Shown here piece after piece: positions 4,073 to 14,417 of a DNA stretch of 64,000 nucleotides (positions are counted from its first letter, which is position 1; every line of letters begins with the position of its first letter). The translations under genes and the position numbers were made by a program. The notes under the pieces were generated by a model that worked only from the letters and a program-made list of their open reading frames with translations, did not search any database and was not told where the DNA came from. This DNA comes from Holophagae bacterium (GTDB lineage Bacteria; Acidobacteriota; Holophagae; Acanthopleuribacterales; Acanthopleuribacteraceae), in contig JAJCXM010000008.1 of assembly GCA_029263455.1 (NCBI GenBank), forward strand, positions 558,001-622,000. The letters run 5' to 3'.

Positions 4073-6046
4073 GTGTTTCGAATTATCTGTGTGAGTCTAT
4101 TTGTCAGTCTTGTTTGGGGTGCTGAACCGCGTGCGATGACCTTTGAAGATATGTTCACCATGAATAGGATCTCTCAAGTTGCGCTCTCGCCCGTAAGCCA
4201 CAAGGTACTTTTTCGTGTGCAAAAAGCTGATATTGAAGCGAATAAACTAAATAGCCAAGTCTACCTATTGGACTTGGAAAGCAGAAAAATGAAATCCATG
4301 ACACCTATTGGAGAATCACATAGTTCACCGGTCTGGCGTCCCGATGGCCAAGGTTATGTTTATAGTTCGGCAGGCCTTTTCTACATCAATGAATTGGATG
4401 GTAGCCCCCCGTATTTAGTGTGCCAAACGAGAGGTGGCGGCCCCGTTTTTTCACCTGACGGCAAGAAACTCTTATTTACGGCTTCAGTTACGGTGGCCGA
4501 CTATGGTGATCACAGTGGAAAATTAATTGAGTCGCTGATGTTTCGACATTGGAACGAATGGACTGATCACGAACGGACACACTTGTTTCTGGTTGATGCG
4601 GCTCCTAATTCTGTAGCAAAGGACATCACGCCACACGCTAGTTGGGTGCCACCTATTTCCTTGGGCACCAACCACGACTATTCATTTTCGCCTGACGGCA
4701 AAGAAGTGGTTTATGTCACCAATGCAGAAGAGATGGTGGCCGCTAGTACAAACAACGACCTTTTTGTGGTCGATCTGCAATCCGGGGAGCATCGTCAGAT
4801 AACGACAAGTAAAGGTGGCGATGCGGGACCTGTTTATTCACCTGATGGGCGCTATATCGCCTTTGAATCCATGGAACGCGCCGGGTTTGAAGCCGACCAA
4901 TCGGTCATCTCACTTTATGACCGCCAATCTAAACAAGTGACCAAACTCAGTACAAGTTTCGATTATTCGTGCCATAACTTAACCTGGTCACCAAATAGTA
5001 AGAACCTATACTTCACCGCACAAGTTAAAGGAGCTAGGTCGATTTATCAAATCGATTTGGCCGGTAAAAGTAAACGGCTGACGGAGGTTTTTGGGGACGG
5101 CGCACCTTCTGTTAGCAAAGACGGTAAGTCGCTGGTATTCACGCGAGAAGCGACCCACATGCCTGCTGAATTGATGTGGATGAACCTCAAAACGCTTAAA
5201 ACAGAGCAGGTGACGAGCATTAATGCAGCCTTATTAGCAGAGCTGGATATGCAACCTTGGGAAGAGTTCTGGTTTGATTCTCCGAACGGAGACAAAGTGC
5301 AGGGATTCGTGGTTAAACCACCCGGATTTGATGAGCAGCAACGTTATCCGCTGATCTATCTGATTCACGGTGGGCCTCAGGGTATGTGGAGTAATATTTT
5401 TCACTATCGATGGAATGCTCAAATGTTTGCCGCACCTGGCTATGTTGCCGTGATGGTTAACCCCCACGGATCAAAAGGCTACGGTCAACCGTTCTGTGAT
5501 GCCGTTACGACGGATTGGGGTGGCCTGCCTTACGAAGACCTGATGAAGGGTTTTGATGTGGCGCTCCAACGTTTCCCCTATATTGATCCTGACCGAGCCG
5601 GCGCTGCTGGCGCTTCTTATGGTGGTTATATGGTCGATTGGATTGCCGTCCATGATAACCCTTTCAAAGCTCTGGTATCTCATAATGGCGTGTACAACTT
5701 GCCGTCCATGTACGGAGCCACCGAAGAGTTATGGTTTCCAGAGTGGGAGTTTGGCGGAACCTATTACGAGAATCCTGAACTCTATGAGAAGTGGTCACCT
5801 CATCGCTACGCGAATAAACTCGATACGCCCATGCTCGTGATCCATAGTGAACTGGACTATCGTGTTCCTCTCAACCAAGGCATGGAACTCTTTACGGCTC
5901 TTCAACGTCAGGGCGTTCCGTCGCAGTGGCTATATTTTCCTGACGAGGACCACTTTGTCGCGGCGCCAAAAAACGCTCGCATGTGGTGGTCAACTGTAAA
6001 TAGTTGGTTTGAAAAGTATTTAGGGACCGGTTCGCAAACATTCTGA
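4073..6046 (+). CDS. S9 family (prolyl oligopeptidase-like) exported serine peptidase
   Basis: A 657-residue secreted peptidase. GTG at 4073 follows AGGAGG with ideal spacing, and a signal peptide (FRIICVSLFVSLVWGAEP) comes first. Residues of about 30-390 are a TolB/WD-like propeller with repeated SPDGK motifs (FSPDGKKLLF, FSPDGKEVVY, YSPDGRYIAF) that gates the active site. The C-terminal alpha/beta-hydrolase domain carries the nucleophile elbow GASYGGY with Ser515, the acid Asp595 in SELDYRVP and His627 in DEDHF. This order matches acylaminoacyl-peptidase/dipeptidyl-peptidase-like S9C enzymes that cleave short peptides in the periplasm. It appears monocistronic. Confidence 0.93.
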   Translation: MFRIICVSLFVSLVWGAEPRAMTFEDMFTMNRISQVALSPVSHKVLFRVQKADIEANKLNSQVYLLDLESRKMKSMTPIGESHSSPVWRPDGQGYVYSSAGLFYINELDGSPPYLVCQTRGGGPVFSPDGKKLLFTASVTVADYGDHSGKLIESLMFRHWNEWTDHERTHLFLVDAAPNSVAKDITPHASWVPPISLGTNHDYSFSPDGKEVVYVTNAEEMVAASTNNDLFVVDLQSGEHRQITTSKGGDAGPVYSPDGRYIAFESMERAGFEADQSVISLYDRQSKQVTKLSTSFDYSCHNLTWSPNSKNLYFTAQVKGARSIYQIDLAGKSKRLTEVFGDGAPSVSKDGKSLVFTREATHMPAELMWMNLKTLKTEQVTSINAALLAELDMQPWEEFWFDSPNGDKVQGFVVKPPGFDEQQRYPLIYLIHGGPQGMWSNIFHYRWNAQMFAAPGYVAVMVNPHGSKGYGQPFCDAVTTDWGGLPYEDLMKGFDVALQRFPYIDPDRAGAAGASYGGYMVDWIAVHDNPFKALVSHNGVYNLPSMYGATEELWFPEWEFGGTYYENPELYEKWSPHRYANKLDTPMLVIHSELDYRVPLNQGMELFTALQRQGVPSQWLYFPDEDHFVAAPKNARMWWSTVNSWFEKYLGTGSQTF

Positions 6047-6110
6047 CACTTAGATCATGTGTTTTTCTGACGACAGGGGATGGTCTACAAAGGGCATGCG
6101 CTAGAATAGA

Positions 6111-6132
6111 CGACGTGGCAAACGCCACGTCG
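6111..6132. other. Perfect 9-bp inverted repeat between peptidase and ppk1 genes
   Basis: CGACGTGGC and GCCACGTCG are separated by the 4-nt AAAC. It lies 65 nt after the peptidase stop and 28 nt before the ppk1 start. Only a weak T-rich tract (ATATTTTAG) follows, so it could be an imperfect terminator for the peptidase or, as a palindrome just after a TAGAAT -10-like hexamer (6102-6107), an operator for ppk1. Confidence 0.5.
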
Positions 6133-6159
6133 AATCGAATATTTTAGTTGGATTGACTC

Positions 6160-8337
6160 ATGATCAAAGCTGCTGTTGTAACCGGGGCCCCAGACATACT
6201 CCCAGAGGATTTTGCGGACCTAAATAATCCACGCCTATATTTGAATCGAGAATTGACCTGGCTCAATTTCAATCGCCGTGTCTTGCATGAAGCAGAAAAT
6301 GAAGAAACCCTCTTACTTGAACGTTTGAAGTTTGTTGCCATTGTTTGTTCAAATATGGACGAATTCTTTATGAAGAGGATGGGTGGTTTAAAGCAACAAG
6401 TGGGTGCTGGCGTCATGGAACTGTCGATTGACGGCCGTACGCCTTTGGAACAGATTAGGGAATGTCATAATGTGATTCGAGAGATTGATCATGTGAAGAG
6501 CGAACTTTACGAGCGACTGATTGAGGGGCTCGCGCAGTTTGGCATTCAAATGCTCAGTCCCAGTGAATTAACAGAAACTGAACTTCAAGATCTTCGCAGC
6601 TATTATTTCGACAATATATTCCCGCTGGTGACGCCCCAGGGCATTGATCCTGCCCACCCATTCCCGTTCATCAGCAACTTGTCACTAAACTTGTTGGTCG
6701 CCCTGAGACATCCGCGCAGCCAGGATGTGTCGCTGGCCCGCGTAAAAGTACCCGTGGGCCCCGATGTACCTCGTTTTTTGAAAGTAGGTGATACGTTCCG
6801 TTTTGTGAAGATCGAAGATGTAATGGCTCAGAATTTGGATTTACTATTTCCAAAGATGGAAGTTCTAAGCTGCGAGACCTTTCGTGTGACACGCAACGCG
6901 GTTACAGAGTTGGATGAGGATCAAGCTGACGACCTCTTATCCATGATTGAAACGGAGTTACGGTATCGTAAATTTGCTTCCGTGGTGCGCCTTCAAGTTG
7001 AACCCCACATGCTGCCAAATCATCGCGGTATGTTAGCGGCAGAGTTGGGTTTAGATGAAAACCTTGACGTGTTTGAAGTCGAAGGGATGATAGGGAAATC
7101 AGGTCTAATGGAGATCTGGGGCTTGGATATTCCGGAGCTAAAAGACCCACCACACCATCCCATCGACCATCCGAGAACGCAATACACGACAAATATCTTC
7201 CACAATATCCGCCGTAACGGCGATATTCTGCTGGTTCACCCTTATGAGTCCTTTTCTACATCCGTAGAGAAATTCCTCGAGCAGGCTTCTGAAGATCCAA
7301 AGGTTCGCGCCATCAAGATGACGCTATACCGAACGGCAAAGCGTTCCAAGGTTATTTCGAACCTCATCAATGCTGCGCGCAACGGTAAGCAGGTTGCGGT
7401 GGTCGTTGAACTTAAAGCACGTTTTGATGAAGCCGCCAATATTCGTTGGGCGTCCCAGCTTGAAGAGGCCGGTATCCATGTCACCTACGGGGTTGTGGGA
7501 CTAAAGACCCACACTAAAGTGGTACTGGTTGTACGCCGGGACTACGACGGCATTCGCCGTTACGCACATATTGGTACCGGAAACTACAATTCGGTCACGG
7601 CACGAATTTACACGGATTTCGGCATGCTGACCTGTGATGATGCTATTGGCGAAGATCTTACCGAGCTATTTAACTACCTAACCACCGGCTACACTCCGAG
7701 TCGCAATTACAAACGTGTCGTTGTAGCGCCTGGCGACATGAAATCTCACCTTATTAACCTGATTCAGCGTGAAATTAAGATGCACACGCCCGAACAGCCA
7801 GGATTGATAAGGATCAAGATGAATGCTCTGGAAGATCCTGATATTACTCGGCATCTGTATCGCGCGGGTCAGGCTGGTGTTAGAGTCGACCTCATTGTGC
7901 GAGACACCTGTCGCTTAAGACCAAGCATTAAGGGGCTTTCGGAGTCGATTCGCGTTATCAGTATCATCGGCAGATTCTTGGAGCATTCGCGCGTTATTCA
8001 TTTTCAGTTAGGCGGCGAGAATCTCTATTTCATCGGCTCGGCGGACTGCATGAAACGCAATTTGGAGAGTCGTGTTGAGGTGTTTACGCCGATTGCCGAC
8101 CTACGCCTGAAGAAAGAACTAGATAGAATCCTGACTTGGCAACTCCAGGCGGAGGTTGGTGTCTGGGAGATGCAGTCGGATGGTAGTTACCTAAAGAGAG
8201 AGCCGTCATCGGATCAAGCTGTTCACAGTCAAAAAACGATGATTGAAGTCGCACGTAAACGCGCGCTAGCCGTTACGCGACCCAAGCGATTGAAATCAAA
8301 AGGAAAAACACGCCGGGCTTTTTGGTCGGCTTACTAA
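6160..8337 (+). CDS. ppk: Polyphosphate kinase 1
   Basis: The 725-residue enzyme reversibly transfers the terminal phosphate of ATP to inorganic polyphosphate. The N-terminal domain opens with LYLNRELTWLNFNRRVLHEA; later come HPYESF, the IKMTLYRT strand and KTHTKVVLVV. His451 corresponds to the autophosphorylated histidine (E. coli H435), and His609 in LEHSRVIHF to the second essential one (H592). HIGTGNYN and GSADCMKRNLESRVE are also conserved. The length fits the family (about 690-730), with a slightly extended basic C-terminus. It is followed after only 10 nt by sixA, so polyphosphate metabolism is paired with a phosphohistidine phosphatase. Confidence 0.97.
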   Translation: MIKAAVVTGAPDILPEDFADLNNPRLYLNRELTWLNFNRRVLHEAENEETLLLERLKFVAIVCSNMDEFFMKRMGGLKQQVGAGVMELSIDGRTPLEQIRECHNVIREIDHVKSELYERLIEGLAQFGIQMLSPSELTETELQDLRSYYFDNIFPLVTPQGIDPAHPFPFISNLSLNLLVALRHPRSQDVSLARVKVPVGPDVPRFLKVGDTFRFVKIEDVMAQNLDLLFPKMEVLSCETFRVTRNAVTELDEDQADDLLSMIETELRYRKFASVVRLQVEPHMLPNHRGMLAAELGLDENLDVFEVEGMIGKSGLMEIWGLDIPELKDPPHHPIDHPRTQYTTNIFHNIRRNGDILLVHPYESFSTSVEKFLEQASEDPKVRAIKMTLYRTAKRSKVISNLINAARNGKQVAVVVELKARFDEAANIRWASQLEEAGIHVTYGVVGLKTHTKVVLVVRRDYDGIRRYAHIGTGNYNSVTARIYTDFGMLTCDDAIGEDLTELFNYLTTGYTPSRNYKRVVVAPGDMKSHLINLIQREIKMHTPEQPGLIRIKMNALEDPDITRHLYRAGQAGVRVDLIVRDTCRLRPSIKGLSESIRVISIIGRFLEHSRVIHFQLGGENLYFIGSADCMKRNLESRVEVFTPIADLRLKKELDRILTWQLQAEVGVWEMQSDGSYLKREPSSDQAVHSQKTMIEVARKRALAVTRPKRLKSKGKTRRAFWSAY

Positions 8338-8347
8338 ATACTTTTTG

Positions 8348-8863
8348 ATGGCTAGAACCTACACTTTGTTGCTGACTCGACACGCGAAGTCATCGTGGTC
8401 GCATGTGGATTTGCCAGATTTTGAAAGACCTCTCAACGATCGGGGTCGGCGCGCCGCAAAACGTATGGGCACCCATCTTCGCACAAAAAACTTAGCGCCA
8501 GATTTGGTAGTGTCATCACCATCGGTACGCACACGTGAGACGCTGGCGTTGTTTGAATCCGGTATGGCTGCGGAACTCAAGGTCGAGTTTGACGACCGTC
8601 TCTACTTCGGCACGTTTGAAGATCTTAAGATAGTTGTCGAATCGGCTCTAAAAAGGAACTGCTCAAACGTCTTAATACTGGGACACAACCCCGGCCTGGA
8701 GTGGCTGCTGAGAAGCATCTGCCCTGATTCGATAGCCGAATTGAATTACAAGAAATTACTACCAACTTGTTCAGTCGCTCAAATTCAGTTTTCAGGTCAG
8801 TTGGGCAGTTCCGTATTTGGATCGGGAGACTTAATAGCAATTCATCGTGCAAAACTTATTTAA
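8348..8863 (+). CDS. sixA: SixA-type phosphohistidine phosphatase
   Basis: A histidine-phosphatase-superfamily protein of about 171 residues. The catalytic RHAKSSW motif at the N-terminus replaces the RHG of phosphoglycerate mutases, as in SixA. DFERPLNDRGRRAAKRMG, SSPSVRTRETL and GHNPGLEWLL (second catalytic His) follow in family order. SixA removes phosphate from histidine phosphotransfer proteins. ATG at 8348 is preferred over the TTG one codon upstream. Lying 10 nt behind ppk1, it is probably co-transcribed with it. The stop is convergent with pssA, 5 nt away. Confidence 0.92.
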   Translation: MARTYTLLLTRHAKSSWSHVDLPDFERPLNDRGRRAAKRMGTHLRTKNLAPDLVVSSPSVRTRETLALFESGMAAELKVEFDDRLYFGTFEDLKIVVESALKRNCSNVLILGHNPGLEWLLRSICPDSIAELNYKKLLPTCSVAQIQFSGQLGSSVFGSGDLIAIHRAKLI

Positions 8864-8867
8864 AAGA

Positions 8868-9668
8868 TTAGTCCGATGTTTGAACTGGCGTTTCCGTTTG
8901 TGGGGTAGGGCGGGTTACCTTGCGCAATAGAGCTCGACCATACATGGCGACCAGGTAATAAAGTGCCACGGCTGTCATGTAAATGATGAAATGAAACAGG
9001 ATCAACGCATGGAAGAAGGCGAAGACGGTGAAATTTGTGGACTTATTTTGATATTTGCGAAACCAAAATTGATCAAATGTGTCGAATTTGAGTGCCGAGA
9101 TCATCGACAAACTTAATATGACAAGAAAAACCACGCTGACTGGAAAGGCGTTTTCGAAAGCGAACATGCTCTCGATTCGATCGCTATTGAAAAATTGCTG
9201 ACCAGCAAACCAACGCTCTAACGGCACCCAAATGGCGATTACCACAGCGGCTGCAGGGACCGGCATGCCGGTAAAAAATGACTTTCCGTAGATCGAGGCG
9301 GTTATGTTGAAGCGAGCCAAGCGGATTGCTCCGCATAAGAGGAACATGATTGGAAGCAGGACAAATAGCTGATCAACTTGCTGGTCATGAATGAAATATC
9401 GGTAATAGATAACCGCAGGAGCAACGCCAAAGGCTACTAAATCTGACATTGAGTCGTACTGAATACCAAACTCACTAGCTGTATTTGTGAGTCGGGCAAC
9501 TTTACCGTCCAATCCATCTAGTATCGAAGCCACCAGAACCAAATAACTGGAAATCCATAAGCGATCATCAAGCGCAAACAAAATCGCAGCGAAACCGCTG
9601 ATCATTGAAAAACTTGTGATCAAACTCGGGAAAATGATTTTGACGTTTCGACGCGGGCGCTTTACCAT
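8868..9668 (-). CDS. pssA: CDP-diacylglycerol--serine O-phosphatidyltransferase
   Basis: An integral membrane enzyme condensing CDP-diacylglycerol with serine to make phosphatidylserine, the precursor of phosphatidylethanolamine. The CDP-alcohol phosphotransferase motif is complete: DGLDGKVAR at residues 51-59, then FGIQYDSMSD with the metal- and CDP-binding aspartates. The N-terminal LITSFSMISGFAAI is typical of PssA type I, and about seven hydrophobic segments follow. ATG at 9668 has AGGAG five bases upstream, better than the TTG at 9689. The C-terminus ends in a basic/Thr-rich tail. Divergent from argS. Confidence 0.92.
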   Translation of the reverse strand: MVKRPRRNVKIIFPSLITSFSMISGFAAILFALDDRLWISSYLVLVASILDGLDGKVARLTNTASEFGIQYDSMSDLVAFGVAPAVIYYRYFIHDQQVDQLFVLLPIMFLLCGAIRLARFNITASIYGKSFFTGMPVPAAAVVIAIWVPLERWFAGQQFFNSDRIESMFAFENAFPVSVVFLVILSLSMISALKFDTFDQFWFRKYQNKSTNFTVFAFFHALILFHFIIYMTAVALYYLVAMYGRALLRKVTRPTPQTETPVQTSD

Positions 9669-9809
9669 TTCGACTCCTATTGCAATCAAGTGCCATCTTA
9701 GCGCGGAACGTAGCCCACTGTCATGCTCCGCTGCATGACTGGACGAGAACCTGTGGTTTTGCTACATTCTTGCGTTCGGTCTAGCAGCTGCATGACATAA
9801 GGAGTCCGT

Positions 9810-11933
9810 ATGCAATACGATCACGAATTTGGCGATTTGCTTCATCAAGCCCTAGTCAAATTGCAGCATGCGGATGCGTTGTCTTTGGACGATGTGCGCA
9901 TGACCATTGAAGAACCCAAAGACGCATCACTTGGTGATCTCGCTTTTCCTTGCTTTCGCTTAGCACGTGTTTTTCGCAAGGCGCCTCAGGCGATTGCGGA
10001 AAATCTGGTTGGGGTAATAAGTGATTTAATGGTTGATCACTCTCTTTTTGAACGGATTCAGGCTGTCGGTCCCTATATTAATGTGAATATTAATAAATCA
10101 AATCTTGCCGCATCGTTGATTCCCACTATTTTGGACGGAAGTCTTTTGGCACCCATACCGTCGCAAAACGTTCGGGTTATGATTGAGTATTCTCAACCCA
10201 ATACACACAAGGCATTTCACGTCGGACATACCCGCAATGCAGCATTAGGTGACGCGTTGATACGGATCCACCGTTGGTGCGGCTTCGACGTTGTCGCCGC
10301 TAATTACATAGGCGATGTTGGCGCCCATATTGCCAAATGCTTGTGGTATCTGGAAACACAATATCAAGGCCCTATTCCGGCTAGCCACCGTGGAGAGTTC
10401 CTTGGAGATATGTATACAAAGGCGATCGAGCTCTTGGACTTCTCGCTGCTTAGCGATTGTCCCATGCTCAAGGTATTTTCCGCCACCGTGACCAGCAAGA
10501 CACAGCATCCAATCCGTGAAGATTGGTGTGTGGTCAAAGTGCGGTTTGGGCAACAGAATAAACAAGTCGTGTGCGCCGGATCTGGTTTTGAAGTAGGGTA
10601 CGTGGTTGCTTACGCCAGCGTCGGAGCACGAGTTGGTTCGCGACGAATGGCCATGGTTGATAAAGAAGGTGTGCAAAGCGAAGGTATGATCTTGAGCTTT
10701 GCCGAAATGGGCATTTCCGAAGACCGCCAGGCAATTTATTGTTTTGACAAAAATACCCAAGATGGCGTTGCTGTTGCCGATCTATTTGCGATTCAGGGCG
10801 CGGTGCCAGATGGCGAGTCGGTTTCCGGAATAATGACCCAACGCCTCGATGGCGTATCGCATACGCTTAAGAAACTCGAGTCAGGAGACCCAAAAACACA
10901 CAAACTCTGGGAAGAAACACGTGAGTGGTCTATGGCAGAGTTTCATGCAATTTATGCCTGGCTGGATTGTCAGTTCGATCACTTTTTTTATGAATCCGAT
11001 GTGGGTGACGAAGGCAAAAAGATCGTGCAAGAGTACTTGGAGAAAGGCGTGTTTGTTCACTCTCAAGGGGCCGTTGGTGCGGATTTGGAGCGCTTTGGGT
11101 TGCCATTTCTGTTGCTACGCAAATCGGATGGGACTGGCTTATATGCGACTAAAGATTTAGCGCTGGCTCGCCGCAAATTTGATGATTTTCATGTTGATGA
11201 GTCCATTTATGTGGTCGACGCGTCTCAATCTCTTCATTTTCAACAGGTCTTTAAGACACTTGAGTTGATGGGCTTTGAAAAAGCTAAGTTGTGTTATCAC
11301 TTGGCTTATGGCCTGGTCGTTCTACCTGATGGCAAAATGAGCTCGCGAAAAGGCAACGTCATTCTTTTCTCGCAGTTAAAGGCGAAATTGGACCAAGAGA
11401 TTCGCAATGACTTCTTAAACAAGTACGTTGATGATTGGTCAAGTGAGGAAATCGAGGCCGCTTCTCGTGCCATCTCAATCGCTACCGTTAAATACGGAAT
11501 GTTAAGCCAAGACCACGGTAAAAACATCGTGTTTGACCTTAAGGAATGGACATCACAATCCGGCAACACGGGTCCTTATCTGATGTATGCATATGCCAGA
11601 ACACAATCCATAGCGCGGAAATTGAATGAACACGACGTTGCTGCGGTTGATTTTTCATTGCTGACCCATGAATCCGAGGGTGCTCTTATCCATCATCTGG
11701 CCAAGTTTAATGACACGGTTGAGTTGGCTAGGAAAGAACATAAACCGCGAGAAATATGCGCTTATTTGTATGACTTGGCTAGAGCCTTCAGTCGCATGTT
11801 CGACCATTGCTCTGTCTTACATGCTGAAACATCAAGCTTACGAACAACACGCGCTCAACTGGTCGCCGCGACTGGCGAAGTCCTCAAAACCGGTTTGGGC
11901 CTGCTGGGCATTTCAACCCTCGACCGCATGTAA
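9810..11933 (+). CDS. argS: Arginyl-tRNA synthetase with an inserted PheT/EMAP-like tRNA-binding domain
   Basis: A class I synthetase charging tRNA-Arg. The N-terminal Add-1 domain spans residues 1-95, followed by the signature HVGH (137-140), NYIGDVGAH, GLYATKDLALARRKF, the KMSSRK loop (509-514) and a C-terminal DALR anticodon-binding helical domain from about residue 590. At 707 residues it is some 130 longer than the family norm. The excess sits between the post-HVGH helices and KLESGDPKTHKLW: residues about 218-335 contain TQHP, VVKVRFG, QVVCAGSG, VGYVVAYASVGARV and VQSEGMILSFAEMGIS, the pattern of the tRNA-binding OB fold at the N-terminus of PheRS beta. The reading frame is intact. AAGGAG precedes the ATG by 5 nt. 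Confidence 0.95.
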   Translation: MQYDHEFGDLLHQALVKLQHADALSLDDVRMTIEEPKDASLGDLAFPCFRLARVFRKAPQAIAENLVGVISDLMVDHSLFERIQAVGPYINVNINKSNLAASLIPTILDGSLLAPIPSQNVRVMIEYSQPNTHKAFHVGHTRNAALGDALIRIHRWCGFDVVAANYIGDVGAHIAKCLWYLETQYQGPIPASHRGEFLGDMYTKAIELLDFSLLSDCPMLKVFSATVTSKTQHPIREDWCVVKVRFGQQNKQVVCAGSGFEVGYVVAYASVGARVGSRRMAMVDKEGVQSEGMILSFAEMGISEDRQAIYCFDKNTQDGVAVADLFAIQGAVPDGESVSGIMTQRLDGVSHTLKKLESGDPKTHKLWEETREWSMAEFHAIYAWLDCQFDHFFYESDVGDEGKKIVQEYLEKGVFVHSQGAVGADLERFGLPFLLLRKSDGTGLYATKDLALARRKFDDFHVDESIYVVDASQSLHFQQVFKTLELMGFEKAKLCYHLAYGLVVLPDGKMSSRKGNVILFSQLKAKLDQEIRNDFLNKYVDDWSSEEIEAASRAISIATVKYGMLSQDHGKNIVFDLKEWTSQSGNTGPYLMYAYARTQSIARKLNEHDVAAVDFSLLTHESEGALIHHLAKFNDTVELARKEHKPREICAYLYDLARAFSRMFDHCSVLHAETSSLRTTRAQLVAATGEVLKTGLGLLGISTLDRM

Positions 11934-12073: not shown

Positions 12074-12655
12074 ATGAAACGTGCATTTAGCTTAATAGAG
12101 CTGGCCATTGTTTTGCTGCTGATTGCCATTTTGCTCGTAGTTGGCTACAGGCTGTCAACTTCAGTGCTGCGCCAATCTAATCTGACGTCTGAGTTAGTGG
12201 CGCTCAAAGGTGCCATCCAACAGGCGCGTGGCAACGCGATCGCGAATTCGGTACCCGTACGAGTTAGTTTTGTCAACGATACGATTCTGGCCGAGGCTGA
12301 CTTCGATCGTGATGGCTCGTTTGGTGATCGGATAGAGGAGTTAGTGGTTGGTGAAGACGTCGGTGTAGGCGTGGTGTTTAATTACCGCGGTGTAAATCAC
12401 ACGACGGTGGCATCGGGCGATGTCGGTGCGATTTCGCACTGGAGTGGCCATGCAGACGATATAGACGACTTTCCTAATGGAACTTTTATTGTGTCGCCGA
12501 CGGGTTTGATCCGATCGGCAGCGGGGAATCCTATTCAGGGAGCCTATTATTTAATTACGGATGACCAATTTGCTGGTGCCTTATACGTTTCCACTTTAGG
12601 CGACGTGAAAATGGGTATTAAGGAAGCGACCGGGGTTTGGGAGTGGACAGACTAA
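12074..12655 (+). CDS. Type IV pilus minor pilin, GspH/FimT family
   Basis: A 193-residue prepilin. The leader MKRA precedes FSLIELAIVLLLIAILLVVGY: cleavage after Ala4, then N-methylated Phe and Glu5 of the mature chain, as prepilin peptidase requires. Ala in place of the usual Gly at -1 recurs in this window's other pilins. The ALKGAIQQARGNAIANSVPVRV stretch is typical of GspH/FimT. GGAGGTG lies just upstream of the ATG. It is first of five co-directional pilus assembly genes and its TAA overlaps the next ATG (TAATG). These minor pilins prime pilus assembly at the inner membrane. Confidence 0.9.
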   Translation: MKRAFSLIELAIVLLLIAILLVVGYRLSTSVLRQSNLTSELVALKGAIQQARGNAIANSVPVRVSFVNDTILAEADFDRDGSFGDRIEELVVGEDVGVGVVFNYRGVNHTTVASGDVGAISHWSGHADDIDDFPNGTFIVSPTGLIRSAAGNPIQGAYYLITDDQFAGALYVSTLGDVKMGIKEATGVWEWTD

Positions 12656-13131
12656 TGCGAAACCGAGGATTTTCTCTAATCGAAGTAATGATTTCAATGG
12701 CCATTCTATTGGTTGGCTTAGTTGGCTTGGCGGTGGCCTTTCAACGATCCATCGCACAGACGACAAGTTCGCGTAGCGACACGTCGGCGATGTTGATTGC
12801 GCAGTCGATTCTAGACGAACTAGATGGCCACTCATTTCAAGATATTCCCACGATTGTCGATACCATTGGCGACGAATATCAAGCTGACTTTCATGGCAGG
12901 TTCATGTCGGACCCGTCAAGTACTGACTTGTACTTCACGCCAACCGTTGTGGTGACAGAAGCAAACCAGAACCTAATTAGGTTGGAAATCAGGGTTAATT
13001 GGGTTGGCTGGCGAGATGAATTTGACCGTGGTGGGTATGGAAAGGACACGGATGCGACAGCAAACGCGTTCGTTCTGAATGCCACCATTTCTAGAAATTA
13101 CGGCGAACAGGCAATTGGGGCAGGTAGCTGA
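12655..13131 (+). CDS. Type IV pilus minor pilin, PilV-like
   Basis: Starts at the ATG overlapping the preceding stop (TAATG at 12653). A canonical leader MRNRG is followed by FSLIEVMISMAILLVGLVGL, with the Gly-Phe cleavage site and Glu at +5. The 158-residue size and the LIAQSILDEL helix after the transmembrane segment fit PilV/GspI-type minor pilins, which form the tip complex with PilW and PilX. Its TGA overlaps the following ATG, so gspH-like, pilV and pilW are translationally coupled. Confidence 0.87.
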   Translation: MRNRGFSLIEVMISMAILLVGLVGLAVAFQRSIAQTTSSRSDTSAMLIAQSILDELDGHSFQDIPTIVDTIGDEYQADFHGRFMSDPSSTDLYFTPTVVVTEANQNLIRLEIRVNWVGWRDEFDRGGYGKDTDATANAFVLNATISRNYGEQAIGAGS

Positions 13132-14417
13132 TGGAGATTAACGTGAAACAAAAAGCATTCTCTCTACTTGAGGTTCTCTTGGGCCTAGCCTTGTCCTTAA
13201 TCGTTATTGCAGGTGTTGCGGCGCTTTTCTCTGGCATCAATTCCGGCGTGCGTAATTCCGCGCGTAGTTCCGACTTGACGAATAACGTTCGTGGCGTGTT
13301 CCAGATACTTCAACACGATGTATACATGGCAAGCCGAGGTATCGGCGACCTGAACCTGTACCAATTTCATTTCAACAATCCCAACGTCAGCAACGAGAAC
13401 CTCTTTTATGGGTTAGCCAATTTGCACGACGATGACGGCGACTCCGAGCTAGAAGTCCAGTATTTTGACTACGACTTTTCGTCCGGAGCTGGAAACCCAA
13501 CCTTTGCAGTGGACTGGCCCGGGTCAACGGGCGGTGAACTGTGGCCTTCGGATATTCCGGAAGTTAACTTGATGAGCACCATTGACGGCGACCCCGCAAT
13601 AGGATCTATCGCGGTTGGCGATGTCTTCGTTTTTTATCGCTCCAATGCTCTATTTGAACTTGGCATTGAGCAGTTAGTCGAAAACTTGCAAGCTGGCCCT
13701 TATTTCGATGAACGCACGCCAGAAGATGGCGGCTTAGGCAATGGTGGATTTATTGTCCAAGTATCCAGTGTCGAAGCGACTGCCCCCGAGAGCCCTTACA
13801 ATTGTGACGGTGCACCTGGCGGTTACCTCTCAGCGGCGCGTGTTCAATTTGGTGGTCCCAGCTTTTCGAGTGATCTATCGGCGAATCCCGTATTAACAAA
13901 TTACACGGAACCCATTAACGATCAAAAATGCCCGGTTTCCTTCTTCCGCGATGATCTTGCTGCCTCCGGGTGGGTAAGACCTGCCAGTGGACTGTGGCTG
14001 GCTCGCAAAGTGGGCAGTGGCGCGAATTATCATCGCATTACGTATTCCGTACAAAACGAAACCCTGATTCGAACAGAAAATGGTCAACCCGTCATTCTGG
14101 CCTCTAATGTGAAAGAGTTCATAATTGAGGCAGGCATGGATATTCGCCCTTTGCAGGGTGACGACTGGGACGGCGCCGTTTCTGTCTTGGAACCGGATTT
14201 TTGGATTACAAACATGGACACATTGGCTGGCGACCGAGAGCAATCTAGAGCTTATCTGGGCAGACACGCTTTGGCAGTTCGCACCTCGATCACCTTCGAG
14301 TCACTTTTTGATGATCTGACCGATAGCGCAGCCGGTGGAACTGGAAGAACAAAAACACGCACGCTATCGAATCAGTTTCGAATAAAAAATCAACACTTGC
14401 CGTTGCGCAACCGCTAA
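13131..14417 (+). CDS. Type IV pilus minor pilin, PilW-like
   Basis: A 428-residue protein with the prepilin signature KQKAFSLLEVLLGLALSLIVIAG and the ARSSDLTNNVRGVFQILQHDVYMASRG segment typical of PilW/GspJ. ATG at 13131 overlaps the pilV stop; GTG at 13143 is an alternative giving a shorter leader (MKQKA). The large C-terminal globular domain is Asp/Gly-rich and longer than many PilW proteins. It is expected to sit in the pilus-tip priming complex with PilV, PilX and the PilY1-like adhesin encoded downstream. Confidence 0.85.
   Translation: MEINVKQKAFSLLEVLLGLALSLIVIAGVAALFSGINSGVRNSARSSDLTNNVRGVFQILQHDVYMASRGIGDLNLYQFHFNNPNVSNENLFYGLANLHDDDGDSELEVQYFDYDFSSGAGNPTFAVDWPGSTGGELWPSDIPEVNLMSTIDGDPAIGSIAVGDVFVFYRSNALFELGIEQLVENLQAGPYFDERTPEDGGLGNGGFIVQVSSVEATAPESPYNCDGAPGGYLSAARVQFGGPSFSSDLSANPVLTNYTEPINDQKCPVSFFRDDLAASGWVRPASGLWLARKVGSGANYHRITYSVQNETLIRTENGQPVILASNVKEFIIEAGMDIRPLQGDDWDGAVSVLEPDFWITNMDTLAGDREQSRAYLGRHALAVRTSITFESLFDDLTDSAAGGTGRTKTRTLSNQFRIKNQHLPLRNR

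Follow-up and report, generated by a model that had tools for sequence, protein, structure and literature searches.

A PheT-type OB domain of the tRNA_bind family inserted within the catalytic domain of a bacterial arginyl-tRNA synthetase

Introduction

The argS gene examined here (positions 9810..11933, + strand, of the window, meaning the whole 64,000-nucleotide stretch of DNA that was analyzed) codes for an arginyl-tRNA synthetase (ArgRS) of 707 amino acids. A preliminary description of this DNA noted about 115 extra residues in the middle of the enzyme, and proposed that these form a tRNA-binding OB fold. The locus raises the question of what this segment is, how it came to be there, and what it might contribute to an enzyme that already carries its own domains for tRNA recognition. 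Synthetase domains are usually gained at protein termini or by way of growing connective peptides.

ArgRS requires a bound tRNA for arginine activation (PMC7373986). In Escherichia coli, ArgRS recognizes its tRNA chiefly through A20 in the D-loop, a nucleotide bound by N-terminal-domain residues that include N84 and F82 (PMC8975779, PMC9976931).

Results and Discussion

An additional domain in an otherwise ordinary ArgRS

The protein matches the ArgRS model TIGR00456 with 403.8 bits (cut-off, 261.65), and the domain profiles PF03485, PF00750, and PF05746 are all matched. The Arg_tRNA_synt_N domain (PF03485, 51 bits), which reads the D-loop and A20, spans residues 10-93 (9837..10088, + strand) and retains Y89 and N91. 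Residues 118-208 (10161..10433, + strand) make up the first catalytic half, which carries HVGH at residues 137-140 and closes with a helix at residues 194-208. The C-terminal portion (10821..11930, + strand) comprises a second hairpin helix at residues 338-358, the second catalytic half with KMSSR at residues 509-513, and the DALR domain at residues 591-707. A model of the whole protein built from 41 sequences (pLDDT 92.7, pTM 0.87) aligns with solved ArgRSs over 547 to 567 residues with Z scores of about 40. The match to the yeast enzyme in complex with tRNA (1f7u) has a Z score of 40.2 over 567 residues at 2.9 Å. Judged from this model, the protein outside the inserted domain is an ordinary ArgRS. 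A search of the source genome found one ArgRS gene, and so the insert-bearing enzyme must be the working one. Upstream of argS (window positions 4073-9689) are genes for an S9 peptidase, a polyphosphate kinase, a histidine phosphatase, and a CDP-alcohol phosphatidyltransferase, and downstream (12074-14417) is a run of pilin-like genes with the N-terminal methylation motif.

The additional segment is best delimited as residues 213-336 (10446..10817, + strand), slightly wider than the limits given originally (10461-10814, residues 218-335). We assign it as a PheT-B2-type OB domain on the basis of PF01588, the pheT_bact model, a structure model, and its absence from sister ArgRSs. In the whole-protein model, the domain sits between the two helices of the hairpin noted above, a site that we take to be the connective part between the two Rossmann halves, called Ins-1 or CP1 in structural terms. 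Among insert-bearing ArgRSs, about 120-125 residues separate the GE(F/W)LGxxYxxA helix from the EVSxxLxxLE helix. The number is 124 in the window's protein versus 4-12 in sister ArgRSs without the insert (from SAR324, Oligoflexales, Bdellovibrio, and Myxococcota). The extra length is about 112-120 residues.

The tRNA_bind profile (PF01588; curated cut-off, 27 bits) matches residues 225-319 significantly, with 28.2 bits (E = 2e-6) when the full protein is searched and 31.3-32.5 bits when the insert segment is searched alone. Positions 46-158 of TIGR00472 (pheT_bact) match the insert segment with 50.4 bits (E = 1.1e-13). Among 26 homologous inserts, PF01588 matches 25 and pheT_bact matches all. 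When the insert was modeled alone from these 26 sequences with AlphaFold2, the predicted fold was an OB barrel (pLDDT 94.7) and no other, with Z scores of 9-18 to solved members from all branches listed. In the whole-protein model, the predicted strands of the insert are at residues 222-232, 240-246, 249-255, 265-269, 282-284, and 289-291, with short helices at 297-300 and 322-325 (pLDDT 90-97). The profile and structural matches thus bear out the proposal of a PheT-type tRNA_bind OB domain inside the catalytic domain of ArgRS. A chance resemblance was rejected because 25 or all 26 of the relatives match, and because the model and the Z scores agree. An artefact of frame or assembly, or a second, normal argS, was likewise rejected since the frame is open in 7/7 genomes of the family and the genome has one ArgRS.

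The insert belongs with PheT and YtpR

The OB fold was initially likened to PheT, to MetRS, and to Trbp111/EMAPII. Only the first of these comparisons stands at the level of the branch: the PheT-B2/YtpR side is supported by the domain tree and by Z scores, and the EMAPII/Trbp111/MetRS-C side is not. A profile of the inserts searched against the PDB finds PheT at 2e-22, YtpR at 2e-18, MetRS-C at 2e-6, and Trbp111 at 6e-4. The best solved match of the insert model is PheT B2 (Z = 18.0, 117 residues, 2.5 Å, 25% identity), on which the model superposes nearly over its full length (residues 1-125 on PheT 34-156). It is followed by YtpR (3bu2; Z = 16.4), MetRS-C and Trbp111 (about 11), and EMAPII (about 9). 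The domain tree unites the 26 inserts in a clade (99/97) that falls with PheT and YtpR; a 100/99 branch parts this side from MetRS-C and the free Trbp-like proteins. It is almost certain, considering anatomy and branch together, that a complete B2-type OB domain splits the turn of the CP1/Ins-1 helical hairpin in a single-copy ArgRS, and that this domain belongs to the PheT-B2/YtpR branch rather than to the EMAPII/Trbp111/MetRS-C branch.

The B2 domain of bacterial PheRS beta resembles the insert in sequence branch, fold, extent, and the SEKELGxSxD...G tail, and is also internal, being inserted into B1. The hosts differ: PheRS is a class II synthetase, whereas ArgRS is class I. Furthermore, the basic residues of the ArgRS inserts are rearranged relative to PheT B2, and the inserts form a clade of their own. 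The window's protein is not a PheRS beta, as it matches TIGR00472 solely at positions 46-158 (50 bits versus a cut-off of 402), and the real PheT of the source genome is encoded elsewhere. YtpR and TapR (NF045760, NF045867) share the OB branch, and the YtpR model matches 26/26 inserts, but these are stand-alone proteins and the insert scores far under the curated cut-off (32 versus 100 bits). The MetRS C-terminal domain, Trbp111/CsaA, EMAPII/p43, and Arc1p have the superfamily fold in common with the insert (Z about 9-12), but are terminal or stand-alone and fall on the other side of the 100/99 split. Those MetRS-C domains and free proteins that were measured are near-neutral to basic, whereas the ArgRS inserts are acidic. 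In the domain tree (124 columns), the inserts lie as one clade beside all PheTs sampled, and no named PheT donor was singled out. The source genome also holds two more tRNA_bind domains of the other branch, one in a free protein of 132 residues and one at the MetRS C-terminus (L031:1399-1794, G000:C3; L032, G000:C4).

We rate the insert as a known domain placed in a new host and at a new site. The AARS Online survey gives AsxRS, AspRS, AsnRS, LysRS-II, MetRS, PheRS-B beta, and TyrRS as hosts of the EMAP/OB superfamily, and ArgRS is not among them (PMC11580382, Table 2). No description of a tRNA_bind domain within ArgRS was found in the open-licence literature. Compared with the ordinary bacterial enzyme (TIGR00456; E. 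coli 5yym) and the yeast enzyme (1f7u), all motifs and domains are common except the inserted OB domain, which only the window's ArgRS has.

Distribution and history of the insert

The same ArgRS of about 700 residues, aligned end to end, is present in all seven Acanthopleuribacteraceae genomes, and the named bearers in this family of Acidobacteriota include Sulfidibacter corallicola and Acanthopleuribacter pedis. In 54 other genomes searched from the same class, matches occur only as separate pieces flanking the insert, and the enzymes are of ordinary ArgRS types. One family member has a second, weak ArgRS-like match (G004:C40:4836-5201; 30% identity to query residues 71-192, in a 624-residue frame), which may come from a further ArgRS or from a different class I synthetase.

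When named genomes were scanned, this architecture also turned up in Planctomycetota (the finished genome Poly30 among them), in Bdellovibrionota, and in a handful of unplaced metagenome-assembled genomes (MAGs). We therefore rejected the view that the insert is an oddity of one family. Among the genomes sampled, the insert is carried by 2 of 396 Acidobacteriota (both from the window's genus), 9 of 369 Bdellovibrionota, and 3 or 4 of 392 Planctomycetota. The doubtful one among the planctomycetes (G444) is a weak match in an 829-residue frame and is possibly a PheT. The distribution of the insert is rare and patchy. The ArgRS of MAG HKST-UBA17 (L101:561-2686) is broken, in that homology continues past the end of the frame at 1829, which points to a frameshift or an assembly error.

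A quick ArgRS tree, computed after removal of the insert columns, groups all 26 bearers in a single clade (SH-aLRT 100). Insert presence requires 1 change on this tree versus 19.6 in shuffles, and no loss is seen inside the bearer clade. From these relationships, the domain probably entered ArgRS just once, in a single lineage, and several independent insertions are unsupported given the one bearer clade at 100 with insert columns masked. Because Acidobacteriota, Planctomycetota, and Bdellovibrionota are mixed inside this clade, horizontal transfer of the whole gene across phyla would be the simple reading. The ArgRS on a MAG contig labelled Nanoarchaeota (L143) lies close to the SAR324/Bdellovibrionota group, owing to either transfer or a binning error.

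Possible roles of the inserted domain

The preliminary description had suggested that the insert grips tRNA, possibly at the elbow. This location is made less likely by the enzyme's own N-terminal domain, which reads the D-loop (PMC8975779). Residue N91, which aligns with E. coli N84, is invariant among 41 ArgRSs, and A20 is present in 5/5 tRNA-Arg genes found in the source genome. Position 20 is instead U in those tRNAs for Phe, Asp, and Lys that were checked there. Since A20 and N91 are both kept, we rejected the idea that the insert replaces recognition of A20 and the D-loop.

In charge, the inserts differ from free Trbp-like proteins and come closer to PheT B2, which speaks against the tRNA-contact reading. 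Mean net charge is -3.3 for the inserts (-2 for the window's), -5.2 for PheT B2, and +2.4 for free Trbp-like proteins. Most of the conserved basic positions of PheT are lost in the inserts, with D238, V265, A281, D284, and E286 standing there. Other basic positions are conserved in the ArgRS inserts, namely R274, R278, and K285 (10629..10664, + strand), where lysine or arginine occurs at frequencies of 96%, 100%, and 85% in the inserts versus 15%, 0%, and 0% in PheT B2. Membership in the tRNA_bind family would suggest tRNA binding, but the acidic mean charge, the changed basic residues, and an elbow already read by the N-domain make such binding less assured.

A role in contacting tRNA-Arg falls a little short of an even chance in our assessment, and an auxiliary contact nearer to the acceptor arm would be the most likely role of the domain, again at somewhat less than even probability. 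The tRNA would be charged as usual, with the N-domain reading A20 and the DALR domain reading the anticodon, while the inserted domain would act as an auxiliary module that touches the bound tRNA-Arg from the side of the catalytic domain. The insertion site suggests a geometry in which this contact would fall on the acceptor arm or the outer body and not on the D-loop elbow. A position nearer the acceptor arm is favored because the elbow is already served by the N-domain. The ArgRS-specific basic patch (R274, R278, and K285) would stand in for the basic residues of PheT, and the domain would help productive docking of the tRNA. Given that arginine activation depends on bound tRNA (PMC7373986), a docking aid could plausibly act on catalysis. 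The explanation as a whole, which combines the anatomy, the single origin, and selection with an auxiliary tRNA-Arg contact, is in our view evenly balanced between right and wrong.

A second reading, which we consider possible at a lower level of confidence, is that the domain lies packed against the catalytic domain, or offers a docking site for a partner such as a synthetase or a translation factor, and makes no tRNA contact. The conserved arginines would then serve intramolecular or protein contacts, and R274 and R278 could equally form salt bridges with the ArgRS body. The acidic mean charge and the lost PheT basic positions are in its favor, as is the pTM of 0.87 for the whole protein, which makes loose tethering of the domain improbable. 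Similarly, B2 of PheRS interrupts another domain and forms part of a large complex. However, the domain family is tRNA_bind, and newly gained conserved basic positions are what contact with a nucleic acid would require.

A bolder form of the tRNA-contact reading is that a class II domain was recruited into a class I catalytic domain and re-tuned for tRNA-Arg, creating a third recognition site beside the anticodon and D-loop domains. Such a site might, for example, read the acceptor arm or outer body, or gate tRNA-dependent arginine activation. We regard this form as unlikely. The insert is a folded domain of one synthetase lodged in the catalytic domain of a synthetase from the opposite class. 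No second copy of the host enzyme was found as a backup, and the domain has persisted across at least three phyla. If the insert contacts tRNA-Arg, then it would represent a natural experiment in grafting a tRNA-recognition module without breaking arginine identity. If it makes no such contact, then it would be a caution against "tRNA-binding" labels given by family membership.

It is improbable that the insert is a passenger that has no function itself and is simply tolerated by a permissive loop. An unrelated insert of about 115 residues is present at the same hairpin in Thermomicrobiales ArgRSs (L094-L097, L102, L103, L105, L109, L110, L113, L128, and L141), which indicates that the site tolerates insertions and is consistent with the passenger reading. 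That insert is similar in size and site to the OB domain, but it occurs in another ArgRS clade and, judged from letters alone, is apparently helical and without PheT-like motifs. Mean pairwise identity is 40% for the OB inserts, 39% for the ArgRS N-domain, and 62-65% for the catalytic core (65% for its first half). Insert dN/dS values of 0.08-0.42 were obtained in five pairs (Nei-Gojobori method, with synonymous sites saturated in some pairs). These values exceed those of the catalytic core where both are measurable, as a passenger would predict, yet they are well below 1. Moreover, the domain and its fold are complete in all 26 bearers, which represent at least three phyla, with no loss inside their clade. 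Four residues (G287, S290, G292, and E299) are invariant across the 26 inserts, in addition to the three ArgRS-specific basic positions. These substitution patterns indicate that purifying selection maintains the inserted domain.

Finally, the PheT of the source genome (G000:C3:177978-179879, L041) lacks exactly the B2 domain, with the two B1 halves joined across the gap. PheT is cleanly without B2 in the window's genome and family while ArgRS gained a B2, and the same pairing is found in G061, G062, and G074, as would be expected if B2 had been lost from PheT and relocated to ArgRS in the same cells with a shared function. This compensation is very improbable, since PheT retains B2 in the majority of the other bearers (G063-G068, G070-G073, and G075-G079), and nearly all sampled Acidobacteriota lack PheT B2, yet only 2/396 of their genomes have the ArgRS insert. 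Relocation is thus largely refuted: the traits dissociate both ways, and therefore the loss of B2 from PheT and the ArgRS insert are independent traits. Among the 109 Acidobacteriota genomes with a PheT match, the match begins no earlier than position 127 in 106, and the 3 that match from position 1 belong to one family, f47 (G174/G191/G199).
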